Shown piece by piece: positions 12,632 to 48,277 of a stretch of DNA of 53,669 nt (positions within the stretch are counted from its first letter, which is position 1; each line of letters begins with the position of its first letter). The stretch is from the NCBI RefSeq assembly GCF_001937195.1, contig NZ_MSDO01000014.1, forward strand, positions 1 through 53,669, in the 5' to 3' direction. The notes beneath the pieces were generated by a model. That model saw only the letters and a program-made list of their open reading frames with translations. It did no database searches and was not told the DNA's origin. This DNA is from Salinicola socius (GTDB lineage Bacteria; Pseudomonadota; Gammaproteobacteria; Pseudomonadales; Halomonadaceae). The position numbers were made by a program, and so were the translations under genes.

Positions 12632-12650
12632 ACGTGGGGGTCGGTTCCGT

Positions 12651-12728
12651 TCGCCGGTACGTTTTGCCGGTACGTTTCGTCGGCGCGTTTCGTCAGTACG
12701 TTTTGTCAGTACGTTTCGTCAGTACACG
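12651..12728. repeat. 13-bp tandem repeat, six units
   Basis: Six contiguous 13-bp units fill half of the rluD-bamD gap. Units 1-2 are (T)YGCCGGTACGTT, unit 3 is TCGTCGGCGCGTT, and units 4-6 are TYGTCAGTACGTT, the last ending ACACG. Units drift in pairs, consistent with repeated slippage. The array ends 9 bp before a TATAGT (12738-12743) that could be the bamD -10, so the repeats occupy the -35 region of that promoter. Confidence 0.9.
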
Positions 12729-24638: not shown

Positions 24639-25228
24639 GAGTCACCCTTGGTTGAAGAGGATTCCCCTTTGGTGAAAGAAGGTTCGTCCTTGCTGGCGGC
24701 CTGAGAGGCTTTCGGCCGGCGCGAATCGAACAGTGACTGCAGCACCAGTCCGACCGCCCCCAGCGTGATCGCGGTATCGGCCAGGTTGAACGCCGGGTAG
24801 TACCAGTCGCCCCAGTGAAACGACAGGTAGTCGACCACGTAGCCGTGCACCAGACGGTCGTAGAGATTGCCGATGGCGCCGCCGATCACCAGCGTCAGCG
24901 AGATCGCGGTGAGCGTCTCGCCGCGTTTCAGTCTCGACAGCCATATCGTCAGACCGATACTGGCGCCGATGGCGATGAACGCGAACAGCCAGCGCTGCCA
25001 GCCCGCATGCTCGGCCAGGAAACTGAATGCTGCGCCGGTATTGTGCAAAAGCGTCAGATTGAAGATCGGCAACACTTCCAGCGGCCGACCGTAATCGAGA
25101 TGGGCGGACGCCAGCGCCTTGATGCCCAGATCGAGCACGATGACCACCAGCGACAGCCACAGCCAGCGCAGCGGCCGCTGCATCGGCAGCGACCGGTCGA
25201 TGGGTTGGGAAGACGTGGATTCAGGCAA
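24635..25228 (-). CDS. lspA: Lipoprotein signal peptidase (signal peptidase II)
   Basis: Aspartic protease of the inner membrane that cleaves prolipoprotein signal peptides. It has four helices, with the catalytic Asp residues in [18 protein letters not shown] and FNLADTAI. The start is uncertain. TTG 25228 follows GAGAGG and overlaps the end of ileS by 8 bases; ATG 25183 aligns better with [11 protein letters not shown] but has no ribosome site. I use the TTG. The C-terminal tail ends in a small repeat ([13 protein letters not shown]) absent from the family core. Confidence 0.93.
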
Positions 25229-28070
25229 AGCGACGTACCTCTCCCGGGCCATCCGGCAGATTGGCGATGGATCGGGCCGACAGCGTCGGATAGTCGGGAT
25301 TCGCCCCCACGTCGGCACGGCGCTCCCAACTGCGCTCGTCCTTCTCATGCGGGCTCATGGCCACCGCGACCTTGAGACCGTCGAGCTCGGTGGCCCTGGC
25401 GTCGCCGGCCTGCGCCAGCGGCTGGAGCGTCGCCTCGGAGGTGATCAGCACGAAGCGCAGCTCATCCTCGAACCGTGACAGCAGCGCGTTCAGCGTATCG
25501 TCGACGTAGAGCGTCACTTCACTGTCCAGCGCGCCCTTGATGGTGCCAGCGTTGCGGGCATCCTCGAGCTGCTTGTTGACCGCCTGCTTGACCGCGATCA
25601 CCTGCTCCCAGAACTGGCGCCCCATGGCGGCGTCTTCGGGCAGCATGGAGAGGCCGTCATAGTAGGTCTCGAGATGGACGCTCGCGCCGCGTTCGCCGGG
25701 GATGTTCTCGTAGATCTCTTCGGCGGTGAACGACAGAATCGGCGCGACCCAGCGTGCCAGCGCTTCGACGATATGATACAGCGCGGTCTGGCAACTGCGA
25801 CGGGCCAGCGAATCGGGCTGGGTGGTGTACTGGCGATCCTTGATGATATCGAGATAGAAGCCGCCCATGTCCCGCGCACAGAAATCGTGGACCTGCTGAT
25901 AGACATCGCGGAAACGATAGTCGCTGTAGGCCTTCCGAATACGCCCCTGCAGCTCGGCGGCACGATCCACCGCCCAACGATCCAGCGCCAGCATGTCGTC
26001 GAAGGCCACAGCGTCGCGGCTCGGCTCGAAGCCGGTCAGGTTGCCGAGCAGGAAGCGCGAGGTGTTGCGAATCCGTCGGTAGACATCGGCGGTGCGCTTG
26101 AGGATCTCATCGGAGACCGCCATCTCGCCGGAGTAGTCGGTCGAGGCGACCCACAGCCGCAGGATATCGGCACCCAACTTGTCCATCACCTGCTGCGGCG
26201 CCACCACGTTGCCCAATGACTTGGACATCTTGCGGCCTTTCTCGTCGACGGTAAAACCGTGGGTCAGCAGCGACTTGTAGGGCGGATGGCCGTCGATGGC
26301 GCAGCCGGTCAGCAGCGAGGAGTGGAACCAGCCACGGTGCTGATCCGAGCCTTCGAGATAGAGATCGGCGCGTGGCCCGTGTTCATGACCGAGCGGATGC
26401 GATCCGCGCAGCACGTGCCAATGAGTGGTGCCGGAATCGAACCAGACGTCGAGAGTGTCGGTGACCTTCTCATAGGCGTCGGCCTCGTCGCCCAGCAGCT
26501 CGCTCGGCTCGAGCTTGAACCAGGCTTCGATGCCCTCCTGCTCGACGCGGCTTGCCACCGCCTCCATCAGCTCGACGGTACGCGGATGCAGCTCGCCGCT
26601 CGCCTTGTCGAGGAAGAACGGGATCGGCACGCCCCAGTTGCGCTGACGTGAAATGCACCAGTCGGGCCGATTGGCGATCATCGAATGCAGCCGCGCCTGG
26701 CCCCAGCCGGGGATGAAATCGGTGGCATCGACGCCGGCCAGTGCCTTGTCGCGCAGCGTCTTGCCGTCGGCGCCTTCCAGGTCCATGCCCACGAACCACT
26801 GCGCGGTGGCGCGGTAGATCACCGGCGTCTTGTGGCGCCAGCAGTGCATGTAGCTATGGGTGATCTTGTCGTGGGCCATCAGCGCCCCGGCGTCTTCCAG
26901 ACTGGCGACGATCTGCGGATTGGCCTTCCAGATCATCTGGCCGCCGAACAGCGGCAGATCGCCTGCGTAAACCCCGTTGCTCTGGACCGGATTGAGAATC
27001 TCGTCGAAGCTCATGCCGTAGGCGCGGCAGGTATGGAAATCGTCCTCGCCGTAGGCGGGCGAGGAGTGAACGATCCCGGTGCCCGCGCCCAGCTCGACGT
27101 AGTCGGCCAGATAGATCGGCGAGATTCGGTCGTAGCCGTCGTCCAGCCCCGCCAATGGATGACGGAAAGCGAGGTTCTCGAGACGCTCGCCCGGCGCGGT
27201 GGCGACGATCTCGCCGGTCAGGCCGAAACGCGCGAGGCTCGACTCGACCAGCTCCTCGGCCAGCAGCAGCAGACGCTCGCCGGTATCGACCAGGGCGTAA
27301 ACGAACTCTGGGTGCACGTTCATCGCCTGATTGGCCGGGATGGTCCAGGGCGTAGTGGTCCAGATCACCGCTGCCGCCGGCTTGGGCAGCGATTCGAGCC
27401 CGAACGCGGCGGCCAGTTTGGCATCGTCGACACTGGGGAAGGCGACATCGATGGCATCGGACTGCTTGTCCTGATACTCGACCTCCGCTTCGGCCAGCGC
27501 CGACCCGCAATCGAAGCACCAGTTGACCGGTTTCAACCCCTTGAACACGTAGCCACCCTTGACCATCTCGGCAAGGGCCCGGATCTCGCCCGCTTCGTTG
27601 GCGAAATTCATGGTCAGGTACGGATTGCCCCAATCGCCCTGAACGCCGAGACGGACGAAGCCTTCCTTCTGCACTTCGACCTGGGCCGCAGCATATTCGC
27701 GGCACAGCGCGCGAGCTTCGGCGGCCGGCAGATGCTTGCCGTGGGTGGTTTCGACCTTGTGCTCGATCGGCAGCCCGTGGCAGTCCCAGCCCGGCACGTA
27801 GGGGGCGTCGAAGCCGGCCAGACTCTTCGACTTGACGATGAAATCCTTGAGCAGCTTGTTGACCGCGTGACCGATGTGAATGCTGCCGTTGGCGTAAGGA
27901 GGGCCGTCATGGAGCACGAACCGCTCGCGGCCCTGGCGCGCTTCGCGCAACTTGGCGTAGAGGTTCATGTCGTTCCACTGCGCGATTCGACTCGGCTCCC
28001 GCGCCGGCAGGTTGCCGCGCATGGGAAAGTCGGTCGATGGCAGATTCAGCGTGTGCTTGTAGTCGCTCAT
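25221..28070 (-). CDS. ileS: Isoleucyl-tRNA synthetase, lacking C-terminal zinc cysteines
   Basis: Class I synthetase of 949 residues charging tRNA-Ile. [12 protein letters not shown] near residue 60 and KMSKSLGN near residue 610 are the two ATP signatures, with the CP1 editing domain between. At the extreme C terminus, where bacterial enzymes of this type bind zinc through two CxxC pairs, the residues are Asp911, Ser914, Ser931 and Ser934 while the flanking frame (EKxxRxW, TLxARxxAN, GE-RRFA) is kept, so the zinc site is gone without truncation. No clear Shine-Dalgarno precedes the ATG; instead a 21-bp tandem array abuts it. Confidence 0.95.
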
Positions 28071-28300
28071 GGCTATTTCGGTCCGCTCAAGGCTGGTTTC
28101 AGGTCGCTCAGGGCTGTTTCGAGTCGCTCAAGGCTGTTCGGATCGCTCAAGGCTGTGTTCGGGTCGCTCAGGGCTGTAATCGGGTCGCTCAGGGCTGTAA
28201 TCGGGTCGCTCAGGACTGTAGTCGGATCGCTCAAGGCTGTGTTCGGGTCGCTCAGGGCTGTGTTCGGGTCGCTCAGGGCTGTGTTCGGGTCGACCGGGCT
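28071..28300. repeat. 21-bp tandem array between ribF and ileS (11 units)
   Basis: Eleven consecutive units of 19-21 bp fill the whole ribF-ileS gap. Minus-strand consensus is AGCCCTGAGCGACCCGAACAC. Units differ by a few bases; most are exactly 21 bp, with length changes only in the units nearest ileS and at the far end. The twelfth unit is the ileS start itself, AGCC-ATG-AGC-GAC-TAC. Each upstream unit has CTG or TTG where ileS has ATG, and 21-bp units keep one frame, encoding LSDPNTA repeats. There are no spacers, so it is not a CRISPR. Confidence 0.95.
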
Positions 28301-28316
28301 GTCATCAATCGTCTAT

Positions 28317-29444
28317 TCATTCGAGAGGCGCCGGGTTCACGGGCGCGTCGGTATTCGAGGTGTCCGGCGGCAGCGGTGCCGAGGCGAGCGGAAACTGCGC
28401 CTGAGGCAAGGTGGCGGCGCAGAGCCCTCCGGTCTTGGCCGCGTAGATCTCGGCATGCGACGTTTCGGGAACCTGCGCGGCCGTCTGCCGGGGCGCCTGG
28501 AGAAAATAGTGACGGGCATCGTCAAGATCACGATGAATCTGGCTGACCAGCGCGTCGAACTCGTCGAATTTGGTTTCGCCGCGTAATTTGGCGCAGGGCA
28601 CGACGGTGAGGGTCTGACCGTAAAGATCGAGTTCGCGATCCAGCAGGTGCACTTCGAGCATGGGCCGATCGGCACCGACGGTGGGCCGCCAGCCGATATT
28701 GGCGGCACCGGCGGCCCATTCACCGTTCGGCAGCCGGGTAGCGCAGGCGAATACGCCACGCAGCGCCATCGGTCGTCTCGTCAGCGGGATGTTGGCCGTG
28801 GGCACACCGATGGTACGGCCCAGTTGCCGATCACGGACGACGCGCCCCTGATAGCCATAGGGTCGCCCCAGCATGCGCGCGGCCTGGAAGAAGTTGCCGC
28901 TGGCCAGTAGTGTCCGCACCCGCGTGCTGGAGACGCGCTCGTCGTCGAGGGCAAAAGTCCGCGTATGCTCGACGGCAAAGCCGCGCTCGCGCCCGACCGC
29001 CTGCAATAGCGTGAAGTCCCCGGCGCGGTCGCAGCCGAACCGAAAATCGTCGCCGACAACCAGGTGCTCGACCTGCAGGCCGTCGATCAACACGCGCTCG
29101 ATGAACTGCTGGGCGGTCAGACTGCGCAAGGCATCGTTGAATGGCAGACACAGAATGCGGTCGGCACCGTGCGCCTTGAGCAGCGCCACCTTGTCGCGCA
29201 GCCGGGTCAGCCGCGGCGGCGCCTGGTCGCCTGCGAAATATTCCCGCGGCTGGGGCTCGAAGATCACCACCGTGACCGGCAGATCCTGCGCACGGGACAG
29301 CGTCTGCAACTGCTCGAGAATGGCCTGATGTCCAAGATGCACGCCATCGAAGTTGCCGATGGTCGCCACGCAGCCACGCGACGTCCGGCCCTGCGAGTCA
29401 GGGTTTCCGGGGGGCAAATTGTGCAAGCCTCGGATCAATTCCAT
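28317..29444 (-). CDS. ribF: Bifunctional riboflavin kinase / FAD synthetase
   Basis: Converts riboflavin to FMN and then FAD. The N-terminal nucleotidyltransferase has GNFDGVHLGHQAIL and VVGDDFRFGCDRAGD; the C-terminal flavokinase has GRTIGVPTANI and a FDEFDALVSQIHRDLDDARHYF helix. The 375 residues exceed the usual length of about 310; the final 60 or so residues (Pro/Ala/Thr-rich, PRQTAAQVPETS to PVNPAPLE) are an extension beyond the fold. Its stop lies 16 bp from the 21-bp repeat array. The murJ-ribF-ileS order is conserved. Confidence 0.94.
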   Translation of the reverse strand: MELIRGLHNLPPGNPDSQGRTSRGCVATIGNFDGVHLGHQAILEQLQTLSRAQDLPVTVVIFEPQPREYFAGDQAPPRLTRLRDKVALLKAHGADRILCLPFNDALRSLTAQQFIERVLIDGLQVEHLVVGDDFRFGCDRAGDFTLLQAVGRERGFAVEHTRTFALDDERVSSTRVRTLLASGNFFQAARMLGRPYGYQGRVVRDRQLGRTIGVPTANIPLTRRPMALRGVFACATRLPNGEWAAGAANIGWRPTVGADRPMLEVHLLDRELDLYGQTLTVVPCAKLRGETKFDEFDALVSQIHRDLDDARHYFLQAPRQTAAQVPETSHAEIYAAKTGGLCAATLPQAQFPLASAPLPPDTSNTDAPVNPAPLE

Positions 29445-47453: not shown

Positions 47454-48277
47454 GCGACCCCTGCTTTCACAGCCGGCTCGCCGTGGGGCGTTTGCGTCAC
47501 CGCCGTTTTCTGCCTCGCTGGCACGCTTTCGATTACCGCGTGTGGATGCTGTGGCTCGATCTCGATGAGCTGCCGGCGCTACTGGCCCGGACCCCGGGGT
47601 TCGGCACCCGTCGCGGGGCACCGGCACGCTTTCGCCGCGAGGATTATCTGGCGCCCCACGAGCTGCCGCTGGCCGATGCCGTCCGCGCCCGTCTGACGAC
47701 GGAGCTGGGTAGCGCGCCGACCGGCCCGGTTCGCATGCTGAGCCAGATCCGCCTGTTCGGCGTGCTGTTCAACCCGTTGACGCTGTATTACGCCTACGAC
47801 GCGCACGGCAGGCTGCGGGCCGTCCTTGCCGAGGTCACCAATACCCCATGGCGCGAGCGCCAGGTCTACGCCTGCCGGGTCGATCCCGAGCGTCATTCGC
47901 ACCGGGCCGAGTTCGACAAGCGCCTGCATGTTTCGCCCTTCAACCCGATGGAGATGCGTTATTACTGGCGTTTCAATACGCCGCGCTCCGCCTCATCGCA
48001 TTGCCCGTCGTCGCATTCCCCCTCGTCGCATTCCGCCAAGTCGAACGGGCGCCTGATGATGCACATGGAGACGTGGCACGAAGAAGCGCGCCACTTCGAC
48101 GCCACGCTGACACTGACGCTGAAGCCGGCGACCCGCACCGCCCTGGTGGCAGAGTTGATCAAGCATCCCGGCATGACGCTCAAGACCCTCATCACCATCC
48201 ACTGGCAAGCGCTCAGGCTATGGCTCAAGCGCACGCCGATTCACGATCACCCCGGACGGGAGACGCCTTCGTCATGA
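47450..48277 (+). CDS. DUF1365 family protein
   Basis: A 275-residue protein of unknown biochemical function. It opens with a stretch typical of the family (RLRHRRFLPRWHAFDYRVWM) and has FGVLFNPLTLYYAYD, EVTNTPWRERQVYA and FDKRLHVSPFNPMEMRYYW. A Ser/His-rich insert made of three 15-bp repeats interrupts the region before RLMMHMETW. It overlaps the flavoprotein (ATGA) and the methyltransferase (ATGA), so the three are translationally coupled. Confidence 0.9.
   Translation: MSDPCFHSRLAVGRLRHRRFLPRWHAFDYRVWMLWLDLDELPALLARTPGFGTRRGAPARFRREDYLAPHELPLADAVRARLTTELGSAPTGPVRMLSQIRLFGVLFNPLTLYYAYDAHGRLRAVLAEVTNTPWRERQVYACRVDPERHSHRAEFDKRLHVSPFNPMEMRYYWRFNTPRSASSHCPSSHSPSSHSAKSNGRLMMHMETWHEEARHFDATLTLTLKPATRTALVAELIKHPGMTLKTLITIHWQALRLWLKRTPIHDHPGRETPSS
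47993..48037 (+). repeat. In-frame 15-bp tandem repeat inside DUF1365 gene
   Basis: Three consecutive 15-bp units (TCRTCGCATTSCCCS-like) encode SSHCP-SSHSP-SSHSA in a loop of the DUF1365 protein. The frame is kept, so copy-number change would lengthen or shorten the loop by five residues. Confidence 0.85.

Follow-up and report, generated by a model that had tools for sequence, protein, structure and literature searches.

REP and BIME elements are dispersed, palindromic and folded, and often lie after stop codons. Mycobacterial interspersed repetitive units (MIRUs) are long units that are alike between loci and seemingly mobile, and human minisatellites occupy many loci that have one common core, private flanks and unstable copy number. 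With REP and BIME elements, the repeats analysed here share dispersal and placement after stop codons, but they have no stable fold and no Rfam match; with human minisatellites they share a common core, private flanks and unstable copy number, although the human repeats are eukaryotic and not known to be tied to stop codons. Nearest in kind are the TAACTGA direct repeats of Beggiatoaceae, Cyanobacteria and Bacteroidetes, which, in the passages of MacGregor (2015, PMC4679880) drawn on here, form a short heptamer core in small sets, dispersed and patchy across distant lineages, and lie in the main genome mostly just 5' of start codons. Like the present repeats, they are dispersed and patchy, stand beside translation signals and have been proposed to act post-transcriptionally, and the same passages show their author also considering an unknown binding protein (PMC4679880). 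The repeats described here differ from that account in having a 12-nt core, ACAGCCYTGAGC rather than TAACTGA, in having spacers of about 5-15 nt and in often being anchored at a stop codon. MIRUs, in the passage of PMC12548453 on which we draw, likewise sit at stop and start signals and could carry a small open reading frame (ORF) overlapping the downstream start. Placement at NTGA signals is found here too, at stop TGAs and at the ATGA of ileS, but mostly the core alone is shared: whole units are not alike between loci, and most spacers differ.

The array between ribF and ileS

The window, by which we mean the whole stretch of 53,669 nt that was analysed, comes from Salinicola socius. On its minus strand lie a gene of 375 aa (28317..29444), which we take to be ribF from its sequence and gene order, and downstream of it a gene of 949 aa (25221..28070) that is presumably ileS. 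The former ends at 28317 and the latter starts at 28070, leaving an intergenic gap of 246 nt (28071..28316, minus strand). Tandem Repeats Finder reports a repeat at 28062-28292 (period 21, 11.2 copies, 83% matches, score 287), and the repeat finder and core positions together define a minus-strand array of 19-21-bp units over the same interval (28062..28292). Eleven cores are present at up to three mismatches, eight of them exact, at successive spacings of 21, 21, 21, 21, 21, 21, 19, 20, 21 and 20 nt. The last of the eleven, ATAGCCATGAGC (28065..28076, minus strand), is the ileS start itself, ATAGCC-ATGAGC, and includes the start codon (ATG 28068-28070); a degenerate outermost core, recognized by eye, lies beside ribF on the same strand (28291..28302). 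The initial annotation had the units filling the entire gap, and they do occupy nearly all of it, leaving about 14 nt beside the ribF stop; it was also right in giving the upstream units a CTG or TTG at the position of the ileS ATG. The frame that it translated as LSDPNTA stays open across the 21-bp run and is interrupted where units measure 19 or 20 bp.

The tandem array between these two essential genes is real. Of the 17 genus gaps read, 16 show the same in-register array, in separate assemblies of which one (G005) is a single contig, and this agreement argues against both chance and assembly artefact. Within its own genome the array is confined to this place, with one BLAST match and all seven strict tandem-core matches at ribF–ileS, and two single exact 12-mers occur elsewhere. 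The window array had no match in the plasmid or phage collection. Two further short tandem arrays in the window, at 12650-12725 (13 bp) and 47987-48043 (15 bp), do not contain the core.

We compared the locus across 58 genomes: our own, 17 others of the genus, 19 family genomes of other genera and 21 of the order, at one genome per species, so that copy numbers are compared between species. The array at ribF–ileS is a trait of the genus, present in 17 of 18 genus genomes with some copies degenerate. Sixteen of the 17 gaps read measure 76-246 nt and contain cores, and the remaining one, in G007, measures 9 nt. An exact core is missing from three of the 16 array-bearing gaps (G016, G011 and G006), and G016 has only two degenerate cores. 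The eighteenth genome, G013, in which the ileS match is interrupted, was fetched separately and also carries the array. Stops interrupt the ileS match near its start there (C1:1125600-1129000), which is likely a matter of sequence quality; the completeness of this genome is 93%.

Outside the genus, where 19 family genomes matched, the array was absent from all 13 loci fetched, and no exact core lay within 200 nt at any of them. The gap was -4 to 17 nt in 11 of these 13 loci (an ATGA overlap in three and 9-17 nt in eight), bearing out the view of the initial annotation that relatives have a short gap. The array is lineage-specific at this place; the other two gaps, of 54 and 163 nt and without a repeat, were measured to a match beginning at residue 3. 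Copy number, predicted to be unstable, indeed differs between near relatives as in variable-number tandem repeats or minisatellites: two sister species whose ribF is 98.2% identical differ at 191 versus 128 nt (about three units), and a pair at 99.1% ribF identity has gaps of 132 versus 173 nt (about two units). A third pair, with ribF 93.4% identical, has equal gaps of 157 nt each.

In each of the 16 array-bearing gaps the ileS start forms the last unit and is in register; the last core lies at the ileS ATG in 11 and 20 nt upstream of it in 5. Elongation of IleRS by a variable N-terminal extension, proposed earlier, was rejected: 15 of 17 genus gaps contain no in-frame ATG, GTG or TTG upstream, and each of the other two has one in-frame GTG in an open stretch upstream of ileS. 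In the window itself, 19 codons upstream of ileS are open in its phase, and none of them is ATG, GTG or TTG. A 7-codon mini-ORF, beginning at a CTG or TTG 20 nt before the ATG and ending on the TGA inside the ileS ATGA, occurs in 10 of the 16 array-bearing gaps; in the window, a TAG closes the corresponding frame two bases short of the ileS ATG. Judged from these frames, coupling of ribF to ileS via a tiny ORF overlapping the ileS start is possible; because the 16 gaps share ancestry, the mini-ORF may represent one event. A continuous reinitiation chain through every unit is not general, since periods of 17 to 27 keep no single frame.

Candidate RNA elements and other signals were also searched for. 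A known RNA family was discarded, as Rfam gave nothing for 27900-28600 up to E 5, and so was a stable RNA fold, with z-scores of +1.37 for the window array and -1.27, +1.88 and -0.69 for three others; a fourth other array, folded on the wrong strand, gave +0.18. These z-scores and the Rfam result also dispose of a palindromic, folding element of the REP/BIME kind. Promoter-like sites numbered zero in 27900-28600, and the one terminator-like site in that interval (0.4 expected) lies inside ribF at 28510-28524.

The core at other genes and in other genomes

For wider searches we defined a tandem-core pattern as two cores 4-13 nt apart and used the same pattern read backwards as a control; looser patterns were dropped from counting because their backward controls matched too, in one case in 145 of 275 genomes. 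In samples that overlap and that each include our own genome, tandem cores occurred at unrelated genes in 45 of 275 own-family genomes (5 of 24 genera), in 55 of 390 genomes of the order sample, in 7 of 369 of the class sample and in 8 of 398 of the phylum sample, with a backward control of 0 in every case. All eight phylum-sample genomes belong to our own class or nearer, and none of the 261 rows labelled 'same phylum' matched. The two richest genomes, with 102 and 99 tandem pairs, come from one taxonomic family, in which the order search found the pattern in 5 of 17 genomes and in none of the other 12. The initial annotation had set equal arrays at many unrelated loci against an origin at the ileS start; many unrelated loci were indeed found, but spacers and copy numbers differ among them.

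Within the genus, CAGCCYTGAGCG was found in 18 of 18 genomes, its single copies being near chance level; it stands in tandem at a junction that we take to be ubiK–yifB in four genus genomes, and more tandem sets lie elsewhere. In 672 kb drawn from three genomes there are 47 exact cores: 4 stand alone, and the other 43 have a neighbour in tandem. Among arrays of period 15-27, the core was present in 3 of 52, 3 of 28 and 3 of 9, and in 1 of 6 in the window, proportions that come from stretches selected for holding arrays and are not genome-wide rates. Five stretches of the viral collection contain the tandem-core pattern, as seen in the surroundings of the core. The heptamer CCTGAGC, which makes up the core's second half, runs head to tail at G070:C1:1694287 and G073:C1:105051. 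A description of the 12-nt core was not found in the literature searched, which covered few subscription journals, and when the core letters were searched as a text string, all the matches listed were judged unrelated by title and the start of the abstract.

To these counts we add the placement of individual arrays. Sixty family loci and four ubiK loci were fetched, of which 62 held an exact tandem core; L235 and L269, without one, were left out of the 62-locus counts. Grouping orthologues by reading the flanking proteins reduced the 62 to 36 independent loci. Family arrays comprise 2 to 8 units, with periods of 17-27 bp, most often 18 and 22. By coding classes that are rough, the gene caller being a simple codon-usage script, an upstream stop codon lies inside or abuts the array at 14 of the 36 independent loci, the array begins within 60 nt past a stop at 4, it lies in sense within coding sequence at 3 and seemingly antisense within coding sequence at 7, and it has another intergenic placement at 8. 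At 27 of the 62 loci (11 of the 36) the in-frame stop is the TGA of the first core itself, and the proteins that stop there end in Gln-Pro, or Pro-Pro at one locus; their genes include the presumed ubiK, aroQ, hmgA and recO and that of a presumed M48 peptidase, among others. All three reading frames and both orientations occur among the arrays, also inside coding sequence.

Stop anchoring is weaker outside our own family. Among 11 arrays in three genomes of other families, 4 begin at a stop of this kind; all 4 lie in G486, after ORFs of 279-1135 aa, and most of the remaining arrays begin 10 to 33 nt past a stop. In another set of 19 places with short flanks, 2 are stop-anchored, one of which is already counted among the four of G486. 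Two single loci showed other arrangements: at L213 (G071:C1) a core repeat seemingly forms a gene's N-terminus, MSEQTALSEQTALSEK, from ATGAGC as at ileS, and at L139 (G016:C2) in-frame core repeats read as SPER-like tails close to where a secretion-type gene ends.

Core and spacer behave differently within the arrays. T-R-R often stands before the core and G behind it: position tables for two sets give T at -3 as 0.45 and 0.66, a purine at -1 as 0.93 and 0.94, and G directly after the core as 0.62 and 0.69. Among 58 distinct spacers, 22 place a stop triplet directly 5' of the core, 3.5 being expected by shuffling, and 4 place TGG there; since both precede the core, they may belong to a longer motif. 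In the ribF–ileS set, which was picked by gene order and not by motif, species consensuses agree at 0.91 per core column versus 0.58 per spacer column, a contrast favoured by the acceptance of units at up to four mismatches to the core. All 8-mers common to at least 9 of 16 species at this locus overlap the core, the shuffled maximum being 4 species. The final spacer ahead of ileS (GGACCGAAA) recurs in about eight genus genomes. Orthologous arrays of related species at recO, hmgA, aroQ and other genes have the same core with changed spacer and period, although core conservation outside ribF–ileS is inflated because family loci were found via exact cores. At seven places fetched from one genome, G153, spacers mostly differ, with two sharing CCATGA and two beginning GGTTTT. 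Full-unit copying is not the rule, though it may occur.

Loci without an array give a view of the ground on which arrays stand. Fourteen genus genomes have no array at ubiK, and in 7 of these the gene ends in AAGCCCTGA, a near-core at the stop. At recO, 3 of 32 loci have an array and end in QP-stop, and 29 end otherwise, in TGA, TAG or TAA. In some relatives other short repeats (GGAAGAA runs and TCTTCCGTCTTCC), a different kind of gene-end tandem repeat, follow recO (L325, L329, L339 and L342). ATGAGC is present at the ileS start in all 13 loci outside the genus, and it is probably the half-core on which the array anchored and which set its register; the remainder of the core would be a common property of the repeat family.

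Explanations of the shared core

The arrays share the core, spacers are mostly private and copy number changes fast, and the arrays are frequently anchored at NTGA signals, either an upstream stop or, here, the ileS start. The account that we tentatively prefer, giving it a little short of an even chance, is a core-sharing dispersed minisatellite family of Gammaproteobacteria whose core is kept through recognition, perhaps in mRNA at gene ends, by a partner that we infer. An array would be born where a near-core exists at an NTGA signal and would then gain and lose units through slippage or unequal recombination, with the core retained because a sequence-specific partner, protein or RNA, recognizes it. 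Recognition would most likely occur in untranslated mRNA around the cistron end, since 21 of 36 loci are sense to a gene, either closing it, following it or lying within it. In our own genus, a tight ribF–ileS junction would have been replaced by a spacer of 76-246 nt in register with the ileS start, so that direct reinitiation should weaken unless it proceeds via the small frames of the array. Several observations speak against this account: the 7 of 36 antisense loci and the 3 of 36 in sense within coding sequence fit a DNA-level cause equally, the rarity of single cores (4 of 47) is odd for a one-copy motif, stop anchoring weakens outside our own family, some spacers are shared, and the arrays folded gave no stable RNA structure. 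A bolder proposal, that an undescribed factor (an RNA-binding protein or an RNA) reads the core at cistron ends, in a network repeatedly gained, expanded and lost among Gammaproteobacteria and including the IleRS gene in one genus, we regard as rather unlikely.

Under such a DNA-level cause, the core would act as a site of recombination, of replication pausing or of an enzyme and set off tandem duplication wherever it arises, and the arrays would be jobless and tolerated at gene ends, where change does no harm. This reading is possible because seven loci seem antisense in genes and single cores are rare, and it accommodates arrays in every frame and orientation, also within coding sequence, as well as copy numbers that differ between sister species with ribF 98-99% identical. 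Random duplication is unlikely, however, to place the stop exactly in the first core as often as at 11 of 36 independent loci, and the core is constant while spacers change between orthologous arrays; we consider this cause rather unlikely.

Improbable in our view is a MIRU-like process in which units insert at NTGA signals and regenerate the stop or start, the mini-ORF of the last unit delivering ribosomes via the ATGA overlap. The MIRU passage of PMC12548453 offers a precedent as far as it goes, and anchoring at stop TGA and ileS ATGA, the recO arrays that bring their own QP-stop to 3 of 32 loci where 29 have unrelated ends, the partly shared spacers of two pairs of G153 places and the 7-codon frame that reaches the ileS ATGA in 10 of 16 gaps (stopping two bases earlier, at TAG, in the window) agree with it. 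Yet the spacers of one genome's loci mostly differ, so that a copied full-length unit is mostly absent; the frames start at weak codons, 6 of 16 gaps are without a full frame and the shared ancestry of the gaps may reduce them to one event; and the window array is unmatched in the plasmid and phage collections. The origin put forward initially, in which the ileS start region was duplicated in place and would regulate IleRS or RibF through decoy starts or a variable N-terminal extension, retains the register at ileS (16 of 16 gaps) and the absence of the array at 13 of 13 outside loci, but it is very unlikely, given the same core in tandem at many unrelated genes and genera, the 15 of 17 gaps without an in-frame start codon and a genus member, G007, that manages with a 9-nt gap.

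Implications for the repeat family

Returning to a minisatellite family whose core may be recognized, the persistence of the core across unrelated genes and several families, with the intervening sequence mostly changing, hints at a recognizing partner, none of which was found described. The split of 5 versus 12 among the 17 genomes of the family with the array-richest members would allow such a partner to be sought through the presence and absence of genes. Should the cause instead be mutational, the arrays would be a bacterial counterpart of core-driven minisatellites. For annotation they carry a warning, as arrays can set the C-terminus (Gln-Pro-stop) or the start context of ordinary genes. 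If a factor reads the core at cistron ends, its network would, after expansion, count about a hundred tandem pairs in some genomes, and in one genus the ribF–ileS array would bring IleRS, an essential tRNA synthetase, within its reach.
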